NCBI RefSeq assembly: GCF_002994745.2
Contig: NC_037094.1
Span: 41,409,456 to 41,473,455 of the forward strand
Direction: 5' to 3'
Source of the DNA: Rosa chinensis
Taxonomy: Eukaryota > Streptophyta > Magnoliopsida > Rosales > Rosaceae
DNA: 64,000 nucleotides
A program made the translations under genes and the position numbers. Shown here one piece after another: positions 2,171 through 55,760 of this stretch; position 1 is the stretch's first letter, and each line of letters opens with the position of its first letter. The notes beneath the pieces were generated by a model. The model saw only the letters and a list, made by a program, of their open reading frames with translations, did no database searches and was not told the origin of the DNA.

Positions 2171-3467
2171 GGTTTGGAAAAGAAAATTTAGAGAGAATTT
2201 GAGATTGTTAGAGTTGAAATTGTGATTTTTGCAAAGGAGAAAAATTAAGAAGGAATGTGGAATTGTTGGAAAAGGATTTATATTATAAATTGGTGGTAAA
2301 TTGTGTTGAAGGAAGTGAATTAAAAATTTGTTAAGTTATCGAACGGTCTTTGTGAAGGTTTAGATTAAGCGAGGTCATGGAATGGTTAAGGAATCGATTT
2401 AAGAATCGATTGAGTGGTTATGAGTTGGAGGGCATCGAGGTTTTAAAGGAATGATAGAATTTAATCCCAAATTAAAGGATGGGAGTTTTATGACAATTTG
2501 TGAATAACGGATGCTTATTCCGAGGGGAATGAGTTGTTTTTGAGAGTATTTCATTATATGGTTAATTATATCCTATTCAATTCTGACAGGACGTACTGAG
2601 CCCTCAAGCGAGGAGGACACAGGCAGGCAGCAGGGTTAGCTGCGGGACTCACTTGTGAGTGGACTTTCATTTTTTTTAAATAATGCATGCAGCATGGAAA
2701 TAAGTTTTCAGTTGATTTATTATTTTGAGAAAATGTGATTTGTGGAAAATAAAGGATTTAAAAAGGAAACAGTTGACAAGGAGGCCAGTTTTGGAGCATG
2801 CGTATCTTACCTAGTTGGCAGTCCCTTCTAGGTAATAGTCTGGTCGGCAGTCCCGTCCAGACTACAGCTCGGTTGGCAGTCTCATCCGATGCGTCATCTG
2901 GTTGGCAGTCCCTTCCAGATGACTTGAGATAGTTAGTCGGTAGTCCCGTCTACTACCTGTGACTAGTTGGCAGTCCCAACTAATCACCGCCTCCTATTCC
3001 GGTTGGCAGTCCCTCCCCGATGGCATGAGATGCCTAGGAAGCAGTCCTTCCTAGTCATCGAAAGAGTTTCTTGGAAAAAGAGTGAATTGGAAACTTTTAT
3101 GAAGTCTAGCAGCATGTTTGTTTTGTTGGAAAGAGAAATGGGAAAGCATACCATAAATTATTTGATTCTTGTTTCGGTTTTGTCCACTCACTCTAATGGA
3201 TTTATATGTTTTCCCCTGGGCCCTTCGTTCTCAAATGCCCAGATTTCAGATTAGCAGAGATAGCGTCCAGGCTTAAAGGACCTTGGAAATCAGCGCTTCC
3301 GTTTTTGTCCGTAGGTTATTACTTAACCTACCTTGTATGATATCGGCTTAGTTTAGTGTTGCTCTGATAAACCTTTTCTTTTAAGTTTGATGGATGTTGT
3401 CGCTTACGGAGGATTATGTTGGGATTTGAACTTTCCGGATGTAATATATGTGCTTGGATTGTAAATT
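2171..3467. other. Unidentified, probably LTR-derived sequence (left part)
   Basis: About 1.3 kb with no convincing coding frame. It continues at 26477-26651 once the solo A LTR and everything nested in it are removed; the TSD AAATT lies at 3463-3467 and 26472-26476. The joined sequence ends in GGGTCCTGTCA, which resembles the 3' end of a chromovirus-type LTR, but no PBS, PPT or protein supports that. A G-rich stretch near 2590-2650 and the hairpin array at 2805-3060 are its notable parts. Confidence 0.5.
2805..3060 (+). repeat. Array of eight hairpins with a constant loop and variable stems
   Basis: Eight units spaced about 29-38 bp share a loop close to TTGGCAGTCCCTT. Each is flanked by different arms that pair with each other. 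Examples are ACCTAG/CTAGGT (2809-2833), TAGTCTGG/CCAGACTA (2836-2864), GTCATCTGG/CCAGATGAC (2893-2923, nine perfect pairs) and CTAGG/CCTAG (3034-3054, extended by four more pairs). The units near 2867, 2930, 2959 and 2998 pair with a bulge or mismatch. Function is unknown. It lies in probable LTR-derived DNA. Confidence 0.85.
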
Positions 3468-4180
3468 TGATAGGAGCATTTTAATGCGACATTTTAACTG
3501 TTATTTCCCTATATTTTCTGCGTTATTTCCTTAATAAAACTCTGTTTAGGAAAGTTTCCATTCTTCGAATGGGAAAGTTCATAATTGTAGAAAGTTTCCG
3601 TTTTGTAGTTTCTATTTTCCATTTTTAGAAAGTTTCCATTTTAGTTTAAGAAAGTTTCCATTTCTTATTTTAGAAAGCTTCTATTTTCAGGTTTTTGGAA
3701 TAAATAAGCAGAATTGAGTTCATAAATGGAACGAGAAGTTTCATGAAGATGACATGGCAAGGAGAGAATCAAGGAAGAGTTTTTTTAAAAAAAGGAAAAT
3801 ATATTTTCCTTGGGGATTAAATTTGCCGTGTAATACTTAAGGAAAAACAAGGTGACAACGTGAGAATTGAAGATGATTGATTGAGGATTTCAAGGAGAGA
3901 TTTTCTTGGGAGACTTTTATGGAAAGAAATATTGTTGGAGGAATAATTTGGTGTGATTGCCAACGTGAAAATCAGAAATAATCAAGGAGATGACGCCAAG
4001 AGAGATTCAAGGGAGATATTTATGGAAGGAAAATATGTGTGCACCAAGGAAAAGCTAAAAAGGCGTCTAGATTCATCCCTAAATTCCCTAAAGGAATGTT
4101 GGCCGAAATTCATGAAGAAAATCAGAATAATTTCAAGGAAATTCGGCAATTAAATATTAGGGAGGTATTTTAGAGAATTA
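3468..4180 (+). mobile_element. Solo family A LTR, left part
   Basis: Begins TGATAGGAGCATTTTAATGCG, contains the U3 GAAAGTTTCC repeats and is cut at 4180 by element B. The rest is at 25170-26471; the parts sum to about 2015 bp, the usual A LTR length. The TSD AAATT flanks the whole. Unrelated sequence rather than PBS or PPT lies on either side, so this is a solo LTR left by LTR-LTR recombination. Confidence 0.93.
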
Positions 4181-6495
4181 TGATGTCGCTTTTGGGAGCA
4201 ACCAATTTAACCCTGAAATGTCATTAGTAGTATAAAGTAAATAGGGATCGTTCTATTCCGGGGATTGAGGGTACACCTGTCATTGTCAAACAATTAAACA
4301 ATTAAAACAAAGTATATTATTTACGCAATATAGACATATTTACGAAAAAGGGGGGAATATTTTTGATTTTGGTTTTCGAAAATTAAACTAAGTTAAGAAA
4401 ATAATTAAAATGCAAAAACATAAAAATATAAAAGGGATGCAAGAACAAAGATCAAAGTCGAAACTCATGATAAAAGTTGATTCAAGTTCACCATTGTTCA
4501 TCATAGTCATGCAAGAGGAGTTGATCATGTGAAACGTTCAAAAGCAAACAATTTCCCATATTTTACTTTCAATGCTAATTAACCTAAGCGAAAGCACCTA
4601 GATTACTCCTATCAAACATGCAATCAAACCCTAGAAAGCTAGTCAATCATGTCATGTTTAACGCATTAAGCACCTAGAAAGGCTATCAACTCAAATGTGC
4701 AACTTAGTATGAAAAAGTCCACCTAATTGCAATCTTCTTTGATTAAATTCGGTTTTTGTACAAAACCTTTACTACTTATCGATTCAAGAACACAAAACCA
4801 AAAAGTTGATCCATGTTCTCAAATTCGTAGCAACATTCACATAAAAACCCTAAATGTTTCGAACCATTCAAGATTATCATACAAAAGATTTCTATCATGC
4901 AAATTTAATCAAACACTCACACAAAAGAAACCATAAATCGCAATATATGAATCTGAAAATTAACAATTAATCATAAAATTTCAGAAAACAACATTTGTTC
5001 ATACATATGTGTCAACTAAGGCAAAACCAACGAAAATACAAAGCAAAGCTACAAGGAGAATCGGATTACACCGTGATGAAGATGAGATGAATGAAGTGAT
5101 GAATGGTCTCTTGAATTTCGAAAGCAATCTTCAAGGATGGTGATGGATGATGTGCACGGCTTGTCTTCTTCTTCCTTGGCCTTGCTTGCACTTCGTGGTT
5201 GCCCTAGAGGATGGAGATGAACACGGCTAGGCTAGAGAGAGTTTTCTGAATTTTCTTCAAAGTGTAAAACGTAAAAGTGGGAACTAGGAACTCCTTGACA
5301 TTGAGAAAGGGGAAGAATATATAGGAGCACGGCCTCCTTTGTTTCCAAACCGTCCAAAACCCTAGAGAAACTCACGGCATGTGCTTGCTTCCTCCACATA
5401 ATTTCCTCCAATGGTTTCTTGCCACATAAGCCCTATGAGGTGGTTCAACCAATCACAAAATTCCAATATTAATTCCCTAAATAATTCTTGCCGAAATATG
5501 TAGATAATTTCTGATTTTATACACCAATTTCGGCAACAATATATTTAGAGAATAAAGGGGGATGAACCTAGACTCCTTTGAGAGCTTTTTGTGTTCAACA
5601 CATATTCTCTTTCCTTTAAAAGCTCCCTAAGAAATCTCCACGAAATCTCTTTATTTTTCTGATTTTTCCTCACGGCAAAAACCCTAATTTCTCTCTTCAT
5701 TATCTCTTGGCCGAATTCCCTAGGGTTTGCACGGCATTCCCTTGTTTTCCTCTTGGCTTGGACGGCTAGGAGTCTTCTAGGGTTTATCTCTTGATTTATT
5801 TCCATAAAAATAGCCCTAGAAAATCTCCCTAGAAAATCTCCTTTTAATTTCTGATTTTCCACGTCACCTCCTTGTTTCTCTCTTGCAAATTCACGGCAAA
5901 ACCTCTTTAGGGCTAGGGTTTGCGTCACAAACCCTAGTTCCATGGGCTCTTGTGGGCTTTTATCCAATTAGCCGAAAATCCAACAAGTCTTGAGAGTTTT
6001 TGGGCCTCCATGCGTCACCTCTATGCCATGTCATCATCTAGAGTCTTCAAGAAGCTTCTCTCATGCCATGTCACTTCATTAATTCGATCTCCATTCATGG
6101 TTGGCTCAAGAGTCTTGTTTTGGCAAGCTTTCCTTTTCTGGACAGGGTTTCCTGGTTGGACCAGGAAAACTTCTTTTCTTCATTTCTGCTCATTTGTGCT
6201 TCCCTTTGTACTTCATCTTGTCTCCCTCCAACGTTGGCTAGCTTCTCTCTCCATTTGTGAGCTCGTTTCAGCTCATTTGTGACAAGGACCTGAAAATAGA
6301 AACTAGTAAGAAAAATAGAAACTTTCCTAAAATGAAAAATGGCAACTTTCCTAAACTGAAAATGGGAAACTTTCTAAAAATGAAAAATAGAAACTACCGA
6401 AAATAGAAACTTTCCTAAACAGGGTTTTATTAAGGAAATAACGCAGAAAATGTAGGGAAATGCAGTTAAAACGTCGCATTAAAATGCTCCTATCA
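4181..6495 (-). repeat. 3' LTR of element B
   Basis: 2315 bp, read on the minus strand as TGATAGGAGC...GCGACATCA. It lacks about 41 bp of the U3 repeat tract that the 5' LTR has near 25037-25080, a deletion probably mediated by the short repeats there. Its terminal hairpin carries one mismatch (AGCAAC instead of AGCGAC). Confidence 0.95.
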
Positions 6496-6510
6496 AATTC
6501 CCCCACACTT
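6496..6510 (-). other. Polypurine tract of element B
   Basis: Minus-strand AAGTGTGGGGGAATT directly abuts the 3' LTR. This is the expected position for the plus-strand DNA primer, and the same sequence abuts the 3' LTR in elements A3, D and E. Confidence 0.9.
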
Positions 6511-8476: not shown

Positions 8477-10543
8477 TTAATCCTCAGGGTTTGGAACGTT
8501 TTGGAGGGGTACATCCTCCACTTCATGTTCCACAAATGCCTCATAGTAAGGCTTCAAGCGATGGCCATTCACTTTGAACTCGTTGCCTGTTTGTTCACTC
8601 TTTATCTGCACAGCTCCATGAGGAAACACATGAGTGATAACAAAAGGCCCAATCCAACGAGAACGAAGCTTACCTGGGAAGAGTTTGAGACGAGAGTGGA
8701 AGAGAAGAACTTTTTGACCCACAACAAAAGTCTTCCTTCGAATCATTTTATCATGGAATGCCTTAGTCTTATCCTTGTAAATCTTAGCACTTTCGAAGGC
8801 ATCATTCCTAATCTCCTCTAACTCTTGCAATTGCAACTTCCTATGAAGCCCAGCTGCATCAATATCCATGTTGAACTGCTTCACAGCCCACCAAGCTCTA
8901 TGCTCTAACTCCACAGGTAAATGGCAAGGTTTGCCATAGACAATTCGATATGGTGACATACCTATGGGAGTTTTGTATGCAGTTCTGTAGGCCCACAAAG
9001 CATCCTCTAGACGCAAGGACCAGTCCTTCCTGTTGGGGTTCACAGTCTTCTCCAATATCCCCTTGATCTGGCGATTAGAGACCTCCGCCTGCCCACTAGT
9101 TTGGGGGTGATAAGGTGTAGAAACCTTATGTGTCACATCATATCTCTTCAAGAGAGCCTCAATCGTCCTATTGCAAAAATGGGATCCACCATCACTAATG
9201 AGAACTCTAGGCATTCCAAACCTGCTAAAGATGTTAGACTTGATAAAATCTGCAACAACCTTAGAGTCATTAGTTCTAGTGGCCTTTGCTTCCACCCATT
9301 TGGAAACATAGTCCACTGCAAGTAAGATATATATGAACCCAAAAGATGATGGGAAAGGTCCCATGAAATCTATACCCCAAACATCAAAGATTTCAACAGT
9401 TATGATATTAGTCAAGGGCATTTGATCTCTAAGGCCTAGGTTTCCTGTTCTTTGGCACTTATCACAAGTTAAACAATAGGCATGTGCATCCCTAAACAAT
9501 GTTGGCCAATAGAACCCAGACTCTAGTACTTTTAATGCAGTTTTCTTTGACCCAAAGTGACCCCCACATGCTTTAGAGTGGCAAAACGAAAGTATAGCAT
9601 TATGTTCATGTTCAGGCACACATCTTCTAATCAATTGATCAGAACAATATTTCCACAGATAAGGTTCATCCCAAACATATTGCTTAATAGTGTTCTTAAG
9701 CCTATCTCTATGAGCACGTGACATGGTATCAGGAATCTTCCTAGACACAATATAGTTCACAATATCTGCATACCATGGTTCACTTACCTGAAGTCCAAAG
9801 AGTTGCTCATCTGGAAATGTCTCCACCAGAGGGAGATAATCTTCTGCATGCACTAAGCGACTCAAGTGGTCAGCTACCACGTTCTCACTACCCTTCTTAT
9901 CCTTGATTTCCACGTCGAATTCTTGCAAGAGTAGGATCCATCTGATGAGCCTTGGTTTCGCCTCTTTCTTGGTCATCAAGTATTTCAAAGCTGCATGGTC
10001 AGTAAAGATAGTAACTTTGGTACCAAGTAAATAAGAGCGAAACTTCTCAAGGGCAAAGACAACTGCAAGGAGCTCTTTCTCTGTGGTGGAGTAGTTCATT
10101 TGTGCATCATTGAGAGTCCTTGAGGCGTAGTAGATGGCATAGGGTAGCTTGTCCTTCCTTTGCCCCAAAACAGCTCCCACTGCATAGTCAGAGGCATCAC
10201 ACATCAACTCAAAGGGCAAGGACCAATCTGGAGGTAACATGATGGGGGCAGATGTCAACAACTCCTTAAGCTTGTCAAAAGCTTCTTGACACTCCTTGTC
10301 AAAGTGAAAGGGCACATCCTTCTGGAGTAGTTGACATAAGGGTCTCGAAATCTTAGAGAAGTCCTTGATGAACCTCCTATAAAAACCTGCATGGCCAAGG
10401 AAAGAACGAATCTCTCTCACAGAAGTGGGAGAGGGTAAGTGACGCACAATATCCACCTTGGCCTTATCAACCTCTATACCCCTAGCAGAGACAATATGTC
10501 CTAGAACTATTCCTTGTTGAACCATAAATGGCATTTTTCCCAA
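8477..10543 (-). CDS. pol: Pol C-terminal part: RNase H and integrase (fragment)
   Basis: 688-codon frame and the last part of the element B polyprotein. The RT thumb/connection lies at about residues 1-100. RNase H (about 108-230) has candidate acidic residues D116, E156, D182 and D225. Integrase starts with a zinc-binding HHCC region (H322, H329, C357, C360) and has the D392, D451, E487 triad with 35 residues between the last two. A GPF module lies near residue 630 and no chromodomain follows. The start codon is only the first Met of the open frame: the natural frame continues from the RT segment and was split by a one-base deletion near 10530, where the two frames overlap. RNase H and integrase look otherwise undamaged. 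Confidence 0.9.
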
Positions 10544-11679
10544 TTAAGTACAAGGTTAGTTTCCATGCAACGTTTCAAAATTATCTCCAGATTATTAAGA
10601 CAATCATCAAAATTCTTTCCAAAAACTGAAAAGTCATCCATGAATACCTCTATGATTTTCTCAATATAATCTGAAAAGATACTTACCATACACCTTTGAA
10701 AGGTACCTGGAGCGTTGCAAAGTCCGAAGGGCATTCGTCTATAGGCAAACGTTCCAAAGGGGCAAGTGAAAGTTGTCTTCTCTTGATCTTCATTTGCAAT
10801 TGCAATCTGGTTATAGCCTGAGTATCCATCCAAGAAGCAATAATAGTCATGTCCAGCTAGGCGCTCAAGCATCTGATCAATGAATGGCAGAGGAAAGTGG
10901 TCTTTCCTTGTAGTTGCGTTGAGCCTTCTATAGTCAATGCACACTCTGTGGCCTGTGACTGTCCTTTGGGGCACCAGTTCGTTATCAGCATTCTTGACCA
11001 CAGTGATCCCAGACTTCTTGGGCACGACCTGAACTGGGGAGACCCACTTGGAGTCAGAAATAGGGTAGATTACCCCACAATCAAGGAGTTTGATAACCTC
11101 CTTCTTCACTACTTCCATCATTGGAGGGTTGAGACGACGTTGAGCCTCTCTAGTGGGTTTAGACCCCTCCTCTAGAAGTATTCTGTGGACACAAGTTGTA
11201 GGGCTGATTCCCTTGATATCAGCCAATGTCCATCCTATGGCGGTCTTGTGTTGCTTCAACATTTCCACCAACTTCTCTTCTTGTGGAGTCGTCAGTGCAG
11301 AGGACACAATCACTGGTAAGGTCTCCTTGTCCCCTAAGTAGACATACTTCAAATGGTCTGGAAGAGGTTTTAGCTCTAGTTCTGGGGCCTGGATCACTGA
11401 AGGTAAAGTCTTGTTAGTGGATAACTGAATGGACAAGGGAGAAACAGACTTACCTAGATAGGGAGATGCCTCAAGGAAGGAGACGTTTTCAATGATTTTC
11501 TCCTCACAAGTGTCTCTCAACTTGTCCTCTGGAATGGTGATTCCTTCCTTTGTATAGCCTACCCCACTCTCAAGGGTAGTGACTAAGGTATCCTCATGCA
11601 TAATGTCAAACATTTTCTGCGCAAGTTCATCCAAAATATCAGTAGAAAAGCAATCATGAACCTCTAGGGGATACCTCAT
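10507..11679 (-). CDS. pol: Pol middle part: reverse transcriptase (fragment)
   Basis: 390-codon frame. Residues 1-150 are the linker after protease. Reverse transcriptase follows, with VCIDYRRLN (246-254), the FLDGYSGYN block containing D284, [15 protein letters not shown] (about 311-325) and the catalytic FMDDF at 346-350. It converts element RNA to DNA in cytoplasmic particles. It overlaps the upstream frame by four bases and the downstream frame by 37. Both junctions are one-base deletions relative to the continuous frame of element C, so this is one piece of a single polyprotein. The ATG at 11679 is internal (MRYP also occurs in frame in element C). Confidence 0.9.
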
Positions 11680-13196
11680 GGCTTCAAAATGTTAAAGCCA
11701 ATAATGTCACCATCGAACTCCATTGTAAGAGAACCTTCATACACATCAATCTTCGTCCTAGCTGTCCTTAAGAAAGGACGTCCCAAAAGCAATGGAGTTG
11801 AACTTACAGGGGAGTCCTCCATTTCCAACACATAGAAATCAGCTGGGAAGATAAGATGGTTAACCTGTACAAGCACATCCTCCAACAAACCTCTAGGGTA
11901 TGCATTGGATCTGTCAGCTAATTGAATGATAACATTGTCAGATTTAAGTTCCCCTAGACCTAGGGTTTCATAAACAGAGTAGGGCATAACATTAACAGAT
12001 GCACCTAGGTCTAGCATGGCATTCTTAAATCTAGAGTTACCAATAGTACAAGGAATAGTAAAGCTTCCAGGATCCTTACACTTTGGAGGAATCTTCCTCT
12101 GAATCAAGGCAGAGACGTTCTCACTTACCTTTACCACCTCCTTTTCACGGTTTACCCTCCTAGTAGTGCAAAGCTCTTTGAGGAACTTGGCATACTTAGG
12201 GACTTGCTTGATGGCCTCTAGGAGGGGTAAGTTTACTTGCACCTTCTTGAAAGTTTCCAAGATAGCTTGGTCACTTTCATCCTTCTTAGATTGGGCGAAC
12301 CTGCGTGGGAAGGGCATGCAAGAAGAAGAAGGGTTAGCAATAACCGAATTTGATAAGTTAGAGTTACTACCTTGAATTTCCGGTTTTGCCTTTGATGGTG
12401 AGGACGCCCTGGTCTCTTTCTTGGACGTTGCAGGGTCCTTCTCAAGTCCCAACTTGGTGGGGTCTTGGTCTTTCTCAATTTCTATGCTCACTTGGGCCTT
12501 CTTGGGTTGCTTTGGTTGATCCACAAATGGTCTTCCACTCCTTGTAGTAACAACTGATGCATTCGCCACATTAGGGTTAGGTATTGTGTTACTAGGGAGC
12601 TTGCCAGTTTCGTGGATCTTGCTCATGAAATCCACAACTTGACCCATTTGCTTCTTGAGCTCTGCAATGTCCTTGGTGTGGGTCTGTTGTCCTTGAATCA
12701 AAGCCTGTGTAGAGTTTGTCAAGGCTTGGGTAGAACTAGTCAAGGCCTCCAACGTTTTGTCATAGTGAGACATTGAAGGTCCTGAGTTCTGTTGAGGAGG
12801 AGGCATGTAAGGCCTTTGAAAAGATGACCCTTGGAATGAAGGCCCTTGTGGACGTTGGAAGTTCCCACCAAGAGGATTCTGAACGTTCTCATTGTTGGTC
12901 CACTTGAAGTTGGGATGGTCCCTCCATCCTGGGTTGTAAGTATTTGAATAAGGGTCATGCCTAGGACGTTGAGGTCCTCCTTGATATCCTCCTTGGTATC
13001 CTCCAATAGCATTAGCAGATTCCCATCCTCCATTTTCATTGAGTTGGGGGCACTGATCTGTAACATGCCCTTGCATAGAGCACACCCCACAAGCCATTGT
13101 TGCACTTGGTCCCTTGGAGCCTACCACTTGGTTCATGAGGAGAGTAAGCTTATTCAGTTGGTCTTCAATGGCAGTATTCTTGCTCACCTCATGCAC
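11676..13196 (-). CDS. gag-pro: Gag C-terminal part and protease (fragment)
   Basis: 506-codon frame. A CCHC zinc knuckle (CX2CX4HX4C, residues 36-49) marks the nucleocapsid. A Gln/Gly/Pro-rich stretch and a Lys-rich linker follow. The aspartic protease motif DLGAS starts near residue 396, with LLLGRPF downstream. The frame ends four residues after the segment that in element C runs on into the RT linker; a missing base near 11690 creates the stop. At the 5' end a missing base near 13220 separates it from the capsid part. Confidence 0.88.
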   Translation of the reverse strand: MHEVSKNTAIEDQLNKLTLLMNQVVGSKGPSATMACGVCSMQGHVTDQCPQLNENGGWESANAIGGYQGGYQGGPQRPRHDPYSNTYNPGWRDHPNFKWTNNENVQNPLGGNFQRPQGPSFQGSSFQRPYMPPPQQNSGPSMSHYDKTLEALTSSTQALTNSTQALIQGQQTHTKDIAELKKQMGQVVDFMSKIHETGKLPSNTIPNPNVANASVVTTRSGRPFVDQPKQPKKAQVSIEIEKDQDPTKLGLEKDPATSKKETRASSPSKAKPEIQGSNSNLSNSVIANPSSSCMPFPRRFAQSKKDESDQAILETFKKVQVNLPLLEAIKQVPKYAKFLKELCTTRRVNREKEVVKVSENVSALIQRKIPPKCKDPGSFTIPCTIGNSRFKNAMLDLGASVNVMPYSVYETLGLGELKSDNVIIQLADRSNAYPRGLLEDVLVQVNHLIFPADFYVLEMEDSPVSSTPLLLGRPFLRTARTKIDVYEGSLTMEFDGDIIGFNILKP

Positions 13197-13213
13197 CCTA
13201 CGAGTAGAATGTC

Positions 13214-14125
13214 CTACCCCTCATATTGTTGAGAGTTTAGGGCACGATTAGCTATAAGCTCCTTCCCAACCGCAGGTGACTTATCCACAAAAGCTCCTCC
13301 AGCTGCAGCATCAAGCATTTGCCTTTCCAAGGGTAAGAGTCCTTCATAGAAACATGTAAGTAGGGTCTCATCCTTCATCTGATGTTGAGGACACTGTGCA
13401 AGTAGGGAGTTGAACCTCTCATAGTACGCAGCATATGACTCATCATGGGCTTGCTCTATTCCACTAAGCTTCTTCCTAAGTGTGATGACCTTCGAAGCTG
13501 GGAAGTATTTCTCCAAGAAGGCCTTTCTCATTGTTTCCCATGATGTGATACGTCCTGCAGGAAGTTCATATAGCCAATCCTTGGCTCTATCAGCTAGAGA
13601 GAATGGAAATGCTCTCATCTTAAGAAGGTTTTCATCCGCCCCTTGTGGTTGCATGTTTGCACAAACAGATTGGAATTCTCGTACGTGCTTGTTAGCATCC
13701 TCCATATTGAGGCCATGGAAGATAGGGAGCTTGTGCAACAATCCACTCTTAAGCTCGAACTCTGCCTGTCTTCCAGCTGCAGGGGCAGGGTATACTATGC
13801 CTGTAGGGGGTCCTCCTTCAACAGTTGCGGTGGAGAGTTCCCTAATAGATGCCATTCTCTCTTCTTCGACTTCTTCAGGTGGTGGTGAAGGTGGTGTAGA
13901 GTTGGACGAAACCACAGGTGAAGGTGAACGTGAAGGAGGAGATGGACTTGGTGTAGGTGATGTAGACTCCTCAGAACAGTAGGTCCGCTTCCCTTGCTCG
14001 TTAAACGTGTACTCTTTGTATGTTGAAGGAGAAGGGCTTGTGAACTCGAGGAGTGAAGGACCCTTCAAACGAGCGAGCCTTGCTTCAATTTCCTTTATTG
14101 TAGATGGTCTAAAAGGCTCGATCAT
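13214..14125 (-). CDS. gag: Gag N-terminal part: capsid domain (fragment)
   Basis: 303 codons. The first 100 residues are Ser/Pro-rich and low-complexity. The retrotransposon Gag (capsid) domain covers about 122-300 (ELKSGLLHKLPIFHGL; a YFPASK block near the middle). The Gag domain and the following QQYEG aligns with element C, whose frame continues; here a single missing base gives a stop. The ATG at 14125 begins the only frame that reaches the Gag domain. The N-terminal residues differ from those of element C. Confidence 0.88.
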   Translation of the reverse strand: MIEPFRPSTIKEIEARLARLKGPSLLEFTSPSPSTYKEYTFNEQGKRTYCSEESTSPTPSPSPPSRSPSPVVSSNSTPPSPPPEEVEEERMASIRELSTATVEGGPPTGIVYPAPAAGRQAEFELKSGLLHKLPIFHGLNMEDANKHVREFQSVCANMQPQGADENLLKMRAFPFSLADRAKDWLYELPAGRITSWETMRKAFLEKYFPASKVITLRKKLSGIEQAHDESYAAYYERFNSLLAQCPQHQMKDETLLTCFYEGLLPLERQMLDAAAGGAFVDKSPAVGKELIANRALNSQQYEG

Positions 14126-46919: not shown

Positions 46920-46956
<37 letters not shown>

Positions 46957-51878: not shown

Positions 51879-54800
51879 ATGTCCACTGTCTCTGATAAGA
51901 CTAAGGAGCTCTTTGAAAAATTGGAACGTGCTAGGCAAAGGGCAGAACTCACTTTTTCAGACCGCCCTCCTCTAGAAAGGAGGGATTCTCAAGACTCTAG
52001 CTATTCAGGTTATAACTCCTCAACTAGATCAACCGAGGAGATCAACAAACCTGACCATTCTGAAGAAGGAGAAGAACAAGTCTTTGAAGAGGAAGAAGAG
52101 GAGGTCACTGAAGAGGACGTTGCAGATACAGAAAAGGAAGAGCACACCCGTGTTGAGCAAGTACAGGCACCAATGGCTGAGACTATTAGGCAACTGTCTA
52201 ATCCTACAGGTGGGGGTGCTGCGCCCTTATGCATTGCCTATCCAGAACCAGGAGAGGGGCTTAATGATGATTTTGAGTTAAAGAGTGGGTTTCTGCATCA
52301 CCTACCCAAGTTTCATGGGATGAGTAGTGAAGACACCAACAAGCATCTCAAGGAGTTCGAGTTTGTCTGTGGGAGTATGTGCCCTAAAGGAGCTGATATC
52401 AATATCTTGAAGATGAAGGCATTCCCCTTTACTTTGGAGGACAAGGCCAAGACTTGGCTATTTGAGCTGCCTGCTGGGACTATCAACACTTGGGATAGGA
52501 TGAAGGGCGAGTTCCTTACGAAGTACTTTCCTGCCTCAAAGGTCACTGTTTTGAGGAAGCAGATTAGTGGAATCACGCAAGGACATGAGGAGAATTTCTG
52601 CAATTATTGGGATAGATTTAAGAGCCTTGTAGCAACATGCCCTAACCATGGGATGAGTGAGGGGTCCCTCCTTACCTATTTTTATGAAGGACTCACCGCT
52701 AATGAGCGTGGTCTGTTAGATGCTGCTGCTGGAGGATCCTTTATGGATAAGACACCTGCTGATGCCAAGGTGCTACTTACTAATCGTGCGCTAAACTATC
52801 AACAATATGAGGGGGTACTTGCCTCTCAACGGAGGGTACATGAGGTGTCCACTAACTCTGCTCTTGAAGACAAGGTCAACAAGATGTCTACTTTGCTGTC
52901 TCAAGTCTTAAACGTTAATGGAGGAGGAGCAATGGCTCAAGTGTGTGGGATGTGCTCGACTCAAGGGCACCCCACAGATAAATGTCCCCAACTTGCCTCT
53001 CCAGAAGAATGGGAATCTGTTAACGCCCTAGGGTATCAAGGAGGTCAAGGAGGCCCGAGGTACAACCCTTACTCAAATACTTACAATCCGGGGCTCAGAG
53101 ACCACCCCAACTTTCGTTGGGCCAACAATGATAACACCTTGCGACCACCTCAAGGCCCAGGTCAGAATTCTCAGCGCCCACCAGGTTTGTTTTTGAGGCC
53201 TCAGGTACCTCAAGCTTTTGGTATTCCCAATTCTGTCCCTCCACCTCCTGTTTCTAATACTTTGAATGCCCCTAATTATGATGAACTGTTGAAGTCCCTT
53301 GCTGCGGGTCAACAACAACTTAACACGGCTACTCAAGCTTTGGTTGTAGGACAGGCAACCCATTCAAAGGATATTGCAGAGCTCAAGAATCAAATGGGCC
53401 AAGTGGTGGATTTCATGGGCCGGATTGCTGAAACAGGGAAACTTCCAAGCAACACAGTGCCTAACCCAAGGAATGAGCACGCCCAAGCCATCATCACTAG
53501 GAGTGGGCGCGTACTAGTTGACCCTCCCAAAGCCCACAAGAAGGCCCAAGCGGCCCATAATGAAGAAGAAGACGTTGTGGAGGTGTCTAAGAAGGATGTT
53601 GAGAAGGACCCAGCTACAACAAGGGTGGAAGTTGACTTGCCCCAAGCTGAGGCACCCGAAGGTACAATTCCTAACTCTAGTGGTTTAGTTAAGACTAACC
53701 CAGTTGTTTCTATACCTTTCCCAAGCAGGTTTGCCAAGACGAAGAAAGATAAATCTGATCAAGAGATCTTGGAAATCTTCAAGAAGGTTCAAGTGAACAT
53801 GCCCTTGATTGAGTGCATCAAACAGGTGCCTAAATACGCCAAGTTCTTGAAGGAGCTATGCACCACAAGGAGGCAGACAAGAGAGAAGGAGGTGGTGAAA
53901 ATGAGCGAAACGGTATCAGCCGTTATCCAGAGGAAGCTACCCCCAAAGTTGAAGGACCCAGGGAGTTTTTCTGTTCCCTGTATCATTGGTGACACCAGGT
54001 TTGAAAATGTGATGTTAGACTTAGGGGCATCCATAAATGTTATGCCTTATAATTTGTATGTGTCCTTAGGTCTAGGCCCTCTTAAGAGGGATAATGTTGT
54101 CATTCAACTTGCTGATAGGTCTAACAAATACCCTCAAGGGTATGTTGAGGATGTTCTTGTGCAGGTAAACCATCTGATATTCCCTGCGGATTTCTACGTA
54201 TTGGATATGGAGGAATCGCCCCTAAATACCACTCCATTACTTTTAGGGCGTCCCTTTATGAGGACTGCAAGAACTAAAATCGACGTGTACAAAGGGACTC
54301 TCACCATGGAGTTTGATGGTGATGTTATACGCTTCAACATTCTTGAAGCCATGAGGTACCCTGTTTCTGATTTGAAACCTTGCTTTGCTATTGATGTAGT
54401 TGATTCACTCGCGCAGGTTTTCTCTGAAGCAATGGTTGAGGATGAATTGGCTCTGACCCTAGAGGAGGGGGTCGGATATGATGAAAATGGGGAACCTATC
54501 CCCAAGGTTGAGTGGGATGTTGAGGAGCCTAGAGTGATCAAGACTGTGGCCTCACTGGAGGCTCAACCTATAAAGAGGTCAATTTCCTATTTGTCAATTC
54601 CGGTTTCTACTAATAAAATGCTACCCTCTATTGTTCAGGCCCCCAAGTTGGAATTGAAGGTACTCCCTGAGCATTTGAAATACGCGTACCTAGGAGAAAA
54701 TGAGACCCTCCCAGTGATCATATCATCAACGCTGGAGGTAGAGCAAGAAAGAAAGTTGGTGGACGTGTTGAAGAAGCACAAGACTGCCATTGGGTGGACT

Positions 54801-55760
54801 CTGGCAGATATCAAGGGGATCAGCCCAACCACGTGTGTCCACCGGATCCTATTAGAAGATGGCGCCAAGCCCACAAGAGAAGCCCAAAGACGTCTACATC
54901 CGCCCATGATGAAGGTGGTTCAAGACGAGGTGATCAAGTTGCTAGATTGTGGGGTGATCTACCCCATTTCTGATAGTAAGTGGGTCTCTCCTGTGCAAGT
55001 GGTGCCCAAGAAGTCTGGGGTGACAGTGGTGAAGAACGAGGAGAATGAGCTAGTGCCCCAGAGATTAGTCACTGGTCACAGGGTATGTATCGACTACCGG
55101 AAGCTGAATGCCACAACAAGGAAGGATCATATGCCCTTGCCTTTTATTGACCAGACGTTGGAGCGCTTAGCGGGCCATTCCTACTATTGCTTCTTGGACG
55201 GATATAGTGGGTACAACCAGATCTGCATAGCCCACGAGGATCAGGAGAAGACGACCTTCACATGCCCCTTTGGGACCTTTGCTTATAGGCGCATGCCCTT
55301 CGGCTTATGCAACGCACCAGGTACTTTCCAAAGATGTATGCTTTCCATTTTCTCAGAATACATTGAAAATATTATTGAAGTCTTTATGGACGACTTTAGT
55401 GTCTTTGGTAAAGATTTTGATACTTGTTTAGAGAATCTAGGATTGATACTTGAGAGGTGTGTAGAAACTAACCTTGTGCTGAATTGGGAGAAGTGTCACT
55501 TCATGGTGACACAAGGAATAGTGTTAGGACACATAATATCTAATAGGGGCATTGAGGTAGATAAGGCTAAGGTTGATCTTGTACGTCACTTACCCTCCCC
55601 CACAACTGTGAGGGAGATACGCTCTTTTCTTGGCCATGCAGGATTTTATAGGCGGTTCATCAAAGACTTCTCCAAGGTGGCGAGACCTATGTGTGCCCTA
55701 TTGCAAAAGGACGTGCCCTTTGTGTTCAATGATGCGCCTGAAAGCAAGCGCATAATTTAA
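51879..55760 (+). CDS. gag-pol: Gag-Pol polyprotein of element C, N-terminal part cut by element D
   Basis: Continuous 1293-codon frame. The first 120 residues are charged and Glu-rich. The Gag capsid domain spans about 128-310, and the CCHC knuckle (CX2CX4HX4C) starts near 356. The protease DLGAS is near 714. RT has VCIDYRKLN near 1069 and FMDDF near 1169. The RT connection follows, up to residue 1283. The last ten codons (from 55730) belong to the LTR of element D and supply a foreign stop at 55758-55760. The family makes a single Gag-Pol product without a frameshift, unlike the broken copy in element B. The ATG at 51879 is the first in this frame that leads into the Gag domain. Confidence 0.93.
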   Translation: MSTVSDKTKELFEKLERARQRAELTFSDRPPLERRDSQDSSYSGYNSSTRSTEEINKPDHSEEGEEQVFEEEEEEVTEEDVADTEKEEHTRVEQVQAPMAETIRQLSNPTGGGAAPLCIAYPEPGEGLNDDFELKSGFLHHLPKFHGMSSEDTNKHLKEFEFVCGSMCPKGADINILKMKAFPFTLEDKAKTWLFELPAGTINTWDRMKGEFLTKYFPASKVTVLRKQISGITQGHEENFCNYWDRFKSLVATCPNHGMSEGSLLTYFYEGLTANERGLLDAAAGGSFMDKTPADAKVLLTNRALNYQQYEGVLASQRRVHEVSTNSALEDKVNKMSTLLSQVLNVNGGGAMAQVCGMCSTQGHPTDKCPQLASPEEWESVNALGYQGGQGGPRYNPYSNTYNPGLRDHPNFRWANNDNTLRPPQGPGQNSQRPPGLFLRPQVPQAFGIPNSVPPPPVSNTLNAPNYDELLKSLAAGQQQLNTATQALVVGQATHSKDIAELKNQMGQVVDFMGRIAETGKLPSNTVPNPRNEHAQAIITRSGRVLVDPPKAHKKAQAAHNEEEDVVEVSKKDVEKDPATTRVEVDLPQAEAPEGTIPNSSGLVKTNPVVSIPFPSRFAKTKKDKSDQEILEIFKKVQVNMPLIECIKQVPKYAKFLKELCTTRRQTREKEVVKMSETVSAVIQRKLPPKLKDPGSFSVPCIIGDTRFENVMLDLGASINVMPYNLYVSLGLGPLKRDNVVIQLADRSNKYPQGYVEDVLVQVNHLIFPADFYVLDMEESPLNTTPLLLGRPFMRTARTKIDVYKGTLTMEFDGDVIRFNILEAMRYPVSDLKPCFAIDVVDSLAQVFSEAMVEDELALTLEEGVGYDENGEPIPKVEWDVEEPRVIKTVASLEAQPIKRSISYLSIPVSTNKMLPSIVQAPKLELKVLPEHLKYAYLGENETLPVIISSTLEVEQERKLVDVLKKHKTAIGWTLADIKGISPTTCVHRILLEDGAKPTREAQRRLHPPMMKVVQDEVIKLLDCGVIYPISDSKWVSPVQVVPKKSGVTVVKNEENELVPQRLVTGHRVCIDYRKLNATTRKDHMPLPFIDQTLERLAGHSYYCFLDGYSGYNQICIAHEDQEKTTFTCPFGTFAYRRMPFGLCNAPGTFQRCMLSIFSEYIENIIEVFMDDFSVFGKDFDTCLENLGLILERCVETNLVLNWEKCHFMVTQGIVLGHIISNRGIEVDKAKVDLVRHLPSPTTVREIRSFLGHAGFYRRFIKDFSKVARPMCALLQKDVPFVFNDAPESKRII

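Follow-up and report, generated by a model that had tools for sequence, protein, structure and literature searches.

Why would a row of hairpins keep the same loop when the stems that carry it differ from one hairpin to the next? This question is raised by a stretch of 64,000 nucleotides of Rosa chinensis DNA (contig NC_037094.1, positions 41,409,456 to 41,473,455), which we refer to as the window. An earlier note, made from the sequence, had described eight units with a common loop at 2805..3060. This was confirmed: eight hairpin units of 31 nt, spaced 29-36 bp, occupy positions 2806-3059 of the plus strand.

The hairpin array and its host element

The constant part of the units consists of a pentaloop, (C/T)AGTC, and a GG/CC cap. 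The loop is CAGTC in all window units except one, which has TAGTC, and in the last unit the cap is AG/CT instead of GG/CC, a compensated change inside the cap. Some units have TT/TT as their 2x2 internal loop, which in others is partly paired (C-G, T-A, A-T); beyond cap and internal loop, up to nine more pairs are present per unit. The arm sequences vary among the units, yet they are mostly complementary within each unit. The hairpins are the following.

2806..2836, plus strand: hairpin 1, TTACCTAG / CTAGGTAA, TT/TT internal loop, GG-CAGTC-CC
2835..2865, plus strand: hairpin 2, TAGTCTGG / CCAGACTA, inner C-G pair, GG-CAGTC-CC
2864..2894, plus strand: hairpin 3, TCGG / CCGA and a bulged outer part; CAGTC loop followed by T, not C
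2893..2923, plus strand: hairpin 4, GTCATCTGG / CCAGATGAC, 9 bp
2928..2958, plus strand: hairpin 5, AGTTAG / CTACT, one base bulged, loop TAGTC
2958..2988, plus strand: hairpin 6, GTGACTAG / CTAATCAC, one C.A mismatch
2994..3024, plus strand: seventh hairpin here, a hybrid of the 5' arm of family unit 7 and the 3' arm of family unit 8
3029..3059, plus strand: eighth hairpin here, hairpin 9 of the family, GATGCCTAGGAAG / CTTCCTAGTCATC, 12/13 pairs

The earlier note had called the stems unrelated, with pairing preserved in every unit. The stems do differ and do pair within units, but inner CTAG or CTGG pairs recur among them, and units 3-4-5 resemble units 7-8-9. Pairing is mostly preserved but uneven, with 7 to 12 of 13 positions paired per unit, and units 3, 5 and 7 are the poorest if bulges are disallowed. 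The seventh unit (7/13 paired) is a deletion hybrid: among 30 aligned copies, the window copy (L089) and L117 share a 28-bp deletion between the cores of family units 7 and 8, and this unit pairs poorly because its arms stem from two different hairpins. Hairpin 5 is found without its bulge, as GGTAGTTAG / CTAACTACC, in some divergent copies, and the mismatch position of hairpin 6 is unpaired in 73 of the 74 units labelled 6.

The array is embedded in LTR sequence, for which two features are relevant here.

2171..3467, plus strand: LTR fragment of a Ty3/gypsy retrotransposon, both ends cut by other LTR sequences; boundaries read from the sequence
3181..3240, plus strand: LTR block that follows the array and is conserved between subfamilies, with CACTCACTC... 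CCCCTGGGCCCTTCG, also CACTCACTCTAA...CCCCTGGGCCCTTCG, and a TATA-like TTATATG

Positions 2171-3472 are 96.1% identical to the 5' LTR (L093) of a full element on contig C6, and the flanking stretches 1-2070 and 3464-4184 come from LTRs of other families. The window piece is truncated, comprising 1.3 kb of a roughly 2.6-kb LTR into which the array starts at about 1.7 kb; the LTR start was placed at TGTAATGCC following a purine tract. In the full element, the two LTR copies (10968433-10971004 and 10975894-10978452) are 97.1% identical, the first bases of both lying outside the comparison. A primer-binding site, TGGTATCAGAGC, begins two bases past the end of the 5' LTR, and a purine run precedes TGTAATGCC at the start of the 3' LTR. 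The element contains PF17919, PF17917 and PF17921 in that order, RNase H being followed by integrase, and matches Ty3 Gag-Pol 7q5b with an E value of 2.1e-24. A chromodomain match (PF00385, residues 232-277 of the second frame, E 1.1e-4) scores 22.4 bits, below the curated cut-off of 25.1. The LTR pair, primer-binding site, polypurine tract, RNase H and Ty3-related integrase establish that the host of the array is an ordinary Ty3/gypsy LTR retrotransposon, which may, to judge from motif similarity, belong to the Tekay clade.

Pairing beyond chance in the window and in other copies

The fold comparison that the earlier note had proposed gave -110.6 kcal/mol for positions 2790-3070 versus -80.2 (sd 5.0) for dinucleotide shuffles (z -6.1), and none of 200 shuffles was as low as the native sequence. 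Five perfect hairpins with arms of at least 7 are present in 2800-3062, whereas 1,000 shuffles averaged 0.13 with a maximum of 2. The arms also prefer their own partners. When the 5' and 3' arms of the window array were combined in all 40,320 possible ways, the true pairing alone attained the best duplex energy of -104.8 (mean -57.5), arms of different units pairing weakly with each other; with the four inner positions removed, 4 of the 40,320 pairings, the true one among them, attained the native level. The fold of a wider stretch of 731 nt is unremarkable (z -1.3; 2 of 20 shuffles folded equally low).

Over the eight units, paired cells number 79 of 104 (76%) versus 60% after shuffling, the covariation score is 0.497 versus 0.231 (reached by 0 of 500 shuffles), and 11 of the 13 pair positions show two-sided changes. 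Every measure of pairing and covariation drops when partners are slid by 1-3 columns. The cleanest case is unit 2 versus unit 4, which have ten positions paired in both, eight of them identical and two changed on both sides. G.U pairs are rare in the window units (4 of 79 paired cells), and differences at paired positions are nearly all two-sided. A covariance model of the eight units (R1) recovered every unit on the plus strand (E up to 0.013) and four on the minus strand as well (best E 0.025); outside the array no match was better than E 0.86. At gathering score, 0 Rfam families matched in the window.

Two further candidates were rejected. A 10-position stem, GTGAGTGGAC/GTCCACTCAC, that would enclose the array is fully paired in 41 of the 68 arrays carrying a downstream CACTCAC and not in the other 27, and a protein search with a chance ORF over the array yielded three candidates, none with an E value up to 1.

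Other copies were sought, as had also been suggested, in the genome of 515,083,735 bases in 53 contigs. A two-core pattern produced 1,448 matches (696 forward and 752 reverse) and its reversed control 0; positions are known for the first matches, all on C1. A similarity search was scored for the best 40 of 1,869 first-look candidates, with identities of 82-100%. These 40 copies, the second array of locus L109 and loci in the first 24 Mb of C1 yielded 105 parsed arrays, 82 of them distinct, with 724 units and 307 distinct 31-mers. The earlier note had reasoned that arms no longer pairing in other copies would make the pairing coincidental. Instead, among arrays with at least six units (the four smaller ones left out), 74 of 78 beat all 2,000 sampled arm permutations, and in the remaining four at most 6 of 2,000 were as good; the copies are related, so these arrays do not count as independent.

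Nine is the commonest unit number (36 of 82 arrays; range 3-13). Family units 3-4-5 and 7-8-9 have arm and spacer sequence in common, which suggests a duplicated block. The array at L182 contains a repeated three-unit block with a hybrid of a unit 5 arm and a unit 2 arm at the joint, and is a snapshot of growth by recombination. Concerning the earlier opinion that simple tandem duplication hardly explains the array, it is correct that units are not alike throughout as in a plain tandem repeat, since the stem columns differ with compensation; the units nonetheless seem to have multiplied by duplication first and to have diverged, with compensating changes, afterwards. Two loci show arrays in other arrangements: L176-L178 (G000 C1:18196757, 18202981, 18209204) are three LTR arrays at equal steps of about 6.2 kb, like tandem elements with common LTRs, and L109 has arrays of different subfamilies at 200-447 and about 1716 on opposite strands, one LTR lying near or inside another.

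With labels set by hand according to the nearest arm, the 724 units comprise 652 with matched arms and 72 hybrids, which deletion or duplication between cores has left behind. Matched units form about 7.0 of nine outer pairs, hybrids about 4.9 and randomly swapped arms 5.2. Even among matched units, numbers 3 and 7 pair poorly (5.4 and 5.1), and units 3, 6 and 7 have retained imperfect stems across copies. The few hybrid kinds that pair well (8/4, 4/8 and 4/2) do so because their parent units are alike.

Constraint on the array and covariation across copies

The main test of constraint used the 40 copies chosen by similarity, not by core, with changes mapped on a tree built from the flanks and columns with >30% gaps dropped. 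The ratio of internal to terminal changes was 232/349 for the flanks, versus 22/91 for the stem (P 2.7e-5), 3/26 for the cap (P 0.0013) and 4/19 for the loop (P 0.03); the 2x2 internal loop (12/14) and the spacer (3/4) did not differ from the flanks. Changes per site on terminal branches were nearly alike (stem 0.60, cap 0.72, loop 0.42, flank 0.57). On internal branches they were 0.14 for the stem, 0.08 for the cap, 0.09 for the loop, 0.33 for the internal loop and 0.38 for the flanks, so that stem, cap and loop have 2.6- to 4.6-fold fewer changes per site than the flanks. Terminal branches were taken to reflect mostly decay after insertion. Because loop, cap and stem are constrained on internal and not on terminal branches, they mattered to active elements, and we infer purifying selection on the array while the element replicated, followed by neutral decay. 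This constraint and the pairing arms kept by the copies support the earlier suggestion of selection on a folded RNA or cruciform. The 2x2 internal loop had no detectable importance to active elements.

A larger set of 80 of the 82 arrays gave the same order (flank 912/1080, stem 64/209, cap 7/52, loop 4/31, internal loop 22/34), with loop and cap conservation inflated by the fact that the units, and partly the arrays, were picked by core. For array pairs with flanks at 52% identity (1,120 of 3,160 pairs), loops are 97.5%, caps 94.2% and stems 86.3% identical, figures in which core-picked units favour the loop and poor alignment of old flanks lowers the flank value; with flanks at 97% (127 pairs), all four parts are 96-98% identical. 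A loop more conserved than the stem would be expected of a retroviral-type packaging signal; the loop leads in these core-picked units, and in the similarity-picked set loop and stem do not differ clearly. Recombination that moves whole arrays from one element to another could also contribute to the contrast between array and flanks.

Within a given unit, covariation across copies is weak. The null used here keeps branch-depth classes and was adopted after the result of a first tree-based null had been seen. The covariation score of 6.38 compares with 5.13 in this null and is reached by 27 of 1,000 nulls; the number of double-changed cells is reached by 122, and paired cells are not in excess (271 of 1,000). 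The signal comes mainly from unit 9 (47 and 20 of 1,000 for score and double changes), and units 1 and 2 fall below their own null, 997 of 1,000 nulls reaching the pairing of unit 1. The first null, which spread changes over deep branches, had given 0 of 1,000 for paired cells (above null), 991 for covariation (below null) and 730 for double changes. One-sided intermediates (G.T, C.A) are common among the copies, and two-sided changes on a single branch that end in a Watson-Crick pair number four, three from Watson-Crick and one from a mismatch, with pair positions 10 and 11 uncounted. Within the radiation seen today the stems seem mostly fixed; compensated differences lie mainly between units and are for that reason older.

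As to scope, one copy of a unit was counted per array. Both arrays of L162, one of which has no downstream flank, were dropped from the tree nulls, pair identities and 80-array test, leaving 80 of 82. The tree nulls also dropped units more than three letters from their label, unit 8 outside one register (31 of 63 labelled kept) and unit 5 with a bulged arm (16 and 15 of 73 kept); the 80-array test left out the same unit 8 register and the other unit 5 register.

Possible roles of the array

We place about as much belief as doubt in the reading that the array has a cis-acting function for an abundant Ty3/gypsy retrotransposon, whose RNA folds to a row of loops that is bound many times by a protein. 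A site of this kind, multivalent and read at the loop, is suggested because the array combines a loop that stays constant, paired stems that can be exchanged, repetition and past selection. The RNA of the element would fold into a row of hairpins, each presenting the same pentaloop; one protein would bind the loops many times over, with the stems as scaffold, and the differing stems would prevent hairpins from pairing with their neighbours. Duplication between cores would generate new hairpins and deletion between cores would remove them. Candidate loop readers are the element's own Gag/nucleocapsid, in genome packaging, or a host RNA-binding protein. A more specific version, which we regard as tentative, is a multivalent RNA landing platform with one protein-read loop on mutually orthogonal stems, a signal by which plant Ty3/gypsy particles would be packaged or assembled.

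The alternative that survives best, though a distinctly less probable one, is that the array acts as DNA: a repeated U3 regulatory element about 120 bp before the TATA-like block, each unit being a binding site with palindromic arms extruded from the duplex as a cruciform or slipped hairpin. A preference for the plus strand was sought in stability and in G.T versus A.C cells, and none was found; the tendency is the reverse, if anything. The minus strand of the window array folds equally well (z -7.65), and the plus strand is lower in 14 of 78 arrays. The outer arms alone average -7.30 on the plus and -7.58 on the minus strand, the plus strand being lower in 186 and higher in 298 of 724 units. 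G.T and A.C cells are about equally frequent in these units (526 versus 502), and the ratios of G.U to A.C on internal (17:6) and terminal branches (70:57) do not differ significantly (P 0.11). The position of the array also fits a DNA role, upstream of the 3181-3240 block, which is the most conserved part of the LTR outside the array in 16 aligned loci chosen for the conservation profile (+122 to +180 after the array in L093) and a possible core promoter judging from its motif. Should this block be the promoter, the array would fall within U3, at the 3' end of the genomic RNA, and an enhancer role of the DNA becomes likelier; this promoter position is, however, guessed from the motif only. 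A reader of duplex DNA would, moreover, preserve arm sequence and not complementarity alone, and for extrusion as a cruciform the arms, at 7-12 bp around 5-nt loops, are short. A duplex reader would gain nothing from complementarity unless the sequence were kept as well, which makes a folded strand likelier; in a retrotransposon this would naturally be RNA. The array is best read as a folded cis-acting structure, probably RNA, that is recognised at its loops, the lack of plus-strand preference leaving some probability for a DNA role.

The other option of the earlier note was that some process writes the palindromic arms on either side of a constant core. In template switching, whether in replication or in reverse transcription, one arm of a hairpin would be rewritten from the other and pairing would be a functionless by-product of mutation; PMC8794818 describes template switching as capable of producing and maintaining perfect stems with the loop retained. 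The two-sided differences between window units and their scarcity of G.U pairs speak for it. We nevertheless disfavour it as improbable: loop and cap are the most constrained parts, constraint is confined to internal branches, hybrids (although perhaps young) do not exceed randomly swapped arms in pairing, one-sided intermediates are common and two-sided single-branch changes few.

It is similarly doubtful that the array guards the element from silencing or exposes it, by blocking RNA-dependent RNA synthesis or decay or by yielding small RNAs. Stems of 7-12 bp are too short as Dicer substrates. RNA structure can raise the mobility of a plant LTR element, as PMC12501189 reports for the ENE triple helix of Evade, but a general structural barrier needs no constant loop. 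That the array is an ordinary minisatellite within the LTR, paired by chance, is very improbable: tandem repeats are often found in LTRs and 3' regions of plant elements, yet fold energy, arm and array permutations, between-unit covariation, the excess of perfect hairpins and internal-branch constraint all speak against it.

The packaging signals that recur in RNA virus genomes, and the psi stem-loops of retroviruses, comprise several hairpins per genome with a conserved loop, in which stem pairing matters more than stem sequence. The rose hairpins likewise carry a conserved loop on sequence-tolerant paired stems; they differ in forming one regular array inside a plant LTR, and Gag binding is here only putative. 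In synthetic MS2/PP7 arrays, stems are recoded to stop mispairing of neighbours and easy recombination, and the same loop is similarly repeated on differing stems. Those arrays are man-made, whereas the rose array is natural, and its CAGTC loop is unlike the MS2 loop. Retand and other elements with hypervariable 3' regions share with the rose element tandem units inside a Ty3/gypsy element. Retand-type repeats are reportedly sequence repeats outside the LTR; the rose array lies inside it, with only loop and cap constant and stems that covary. Few cis-acting RNA signals of plant Ty3/gypsy elements seem to be known. The ENE of Evade, described in PMC12501189 as an RNA triple helix affecting the element's success, is, as the rose array would be, a cis-acting RNA structure of a plant LTR retrotransposon; it is single and binds the poly(A) tail. 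The U-rich loops needed for such binding are not seen in the rose array. Retrozymes, with hammerhead ribozymes in LTRs (PMC4918200), are a further case of a structured RNA motif in a plant LTR; the rose window has no Rfam match at gathering score.

Among the matches listed in the open-licence papers searched, no such hairpin array was found, in agreement with the earlier remark that no named element has this form, although its host is an ordinary retrotransposon. In viral and GTDB contigs, two neighbouring cores occurred in 64 and 23 stretches; inspection of the arms wherever exact cores stood close together revealed no array with variable pairing arms, but repeats of unrelated kinds and cores adjacent by chance. 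When the LTR piece was compared with these 87 loci by BLAST, no match was better than E 0.065, and a scan for the downstream LTR motif hit one viral contig that looked unrelated.

The array is a short, well-defined candidate cis signal with a constant loop and probably hundreds of copies of differing age, which makes the loop partner amenable to pull-down and the structure to probing. If the loop-read RNA interpretation is true, a repeated structural signal escapes its own repetitiveness, its stems drifting apart while each stays paired.

The window as a whole looks like plant DNA crowded with nested LTR retrotransposons. Long gag-pol frames with RNase H, integrase, reverse transcriptase and gag domains of Ty3/gypsy type, presumably of an Athila-like clade, lie at 8477-14125 (minus strand) and 51879-55760 (plus strand). 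Positions 1-2070, 4181-6499 and 15310-62860 form a dense nest of LTR-type repeats, many of about 2 kb and >90% identical, in both orientations. A (TA)n run is located at 46921-46953, in the part of the window richest in short perfect hairpins, with 14 of them in 260 bp.
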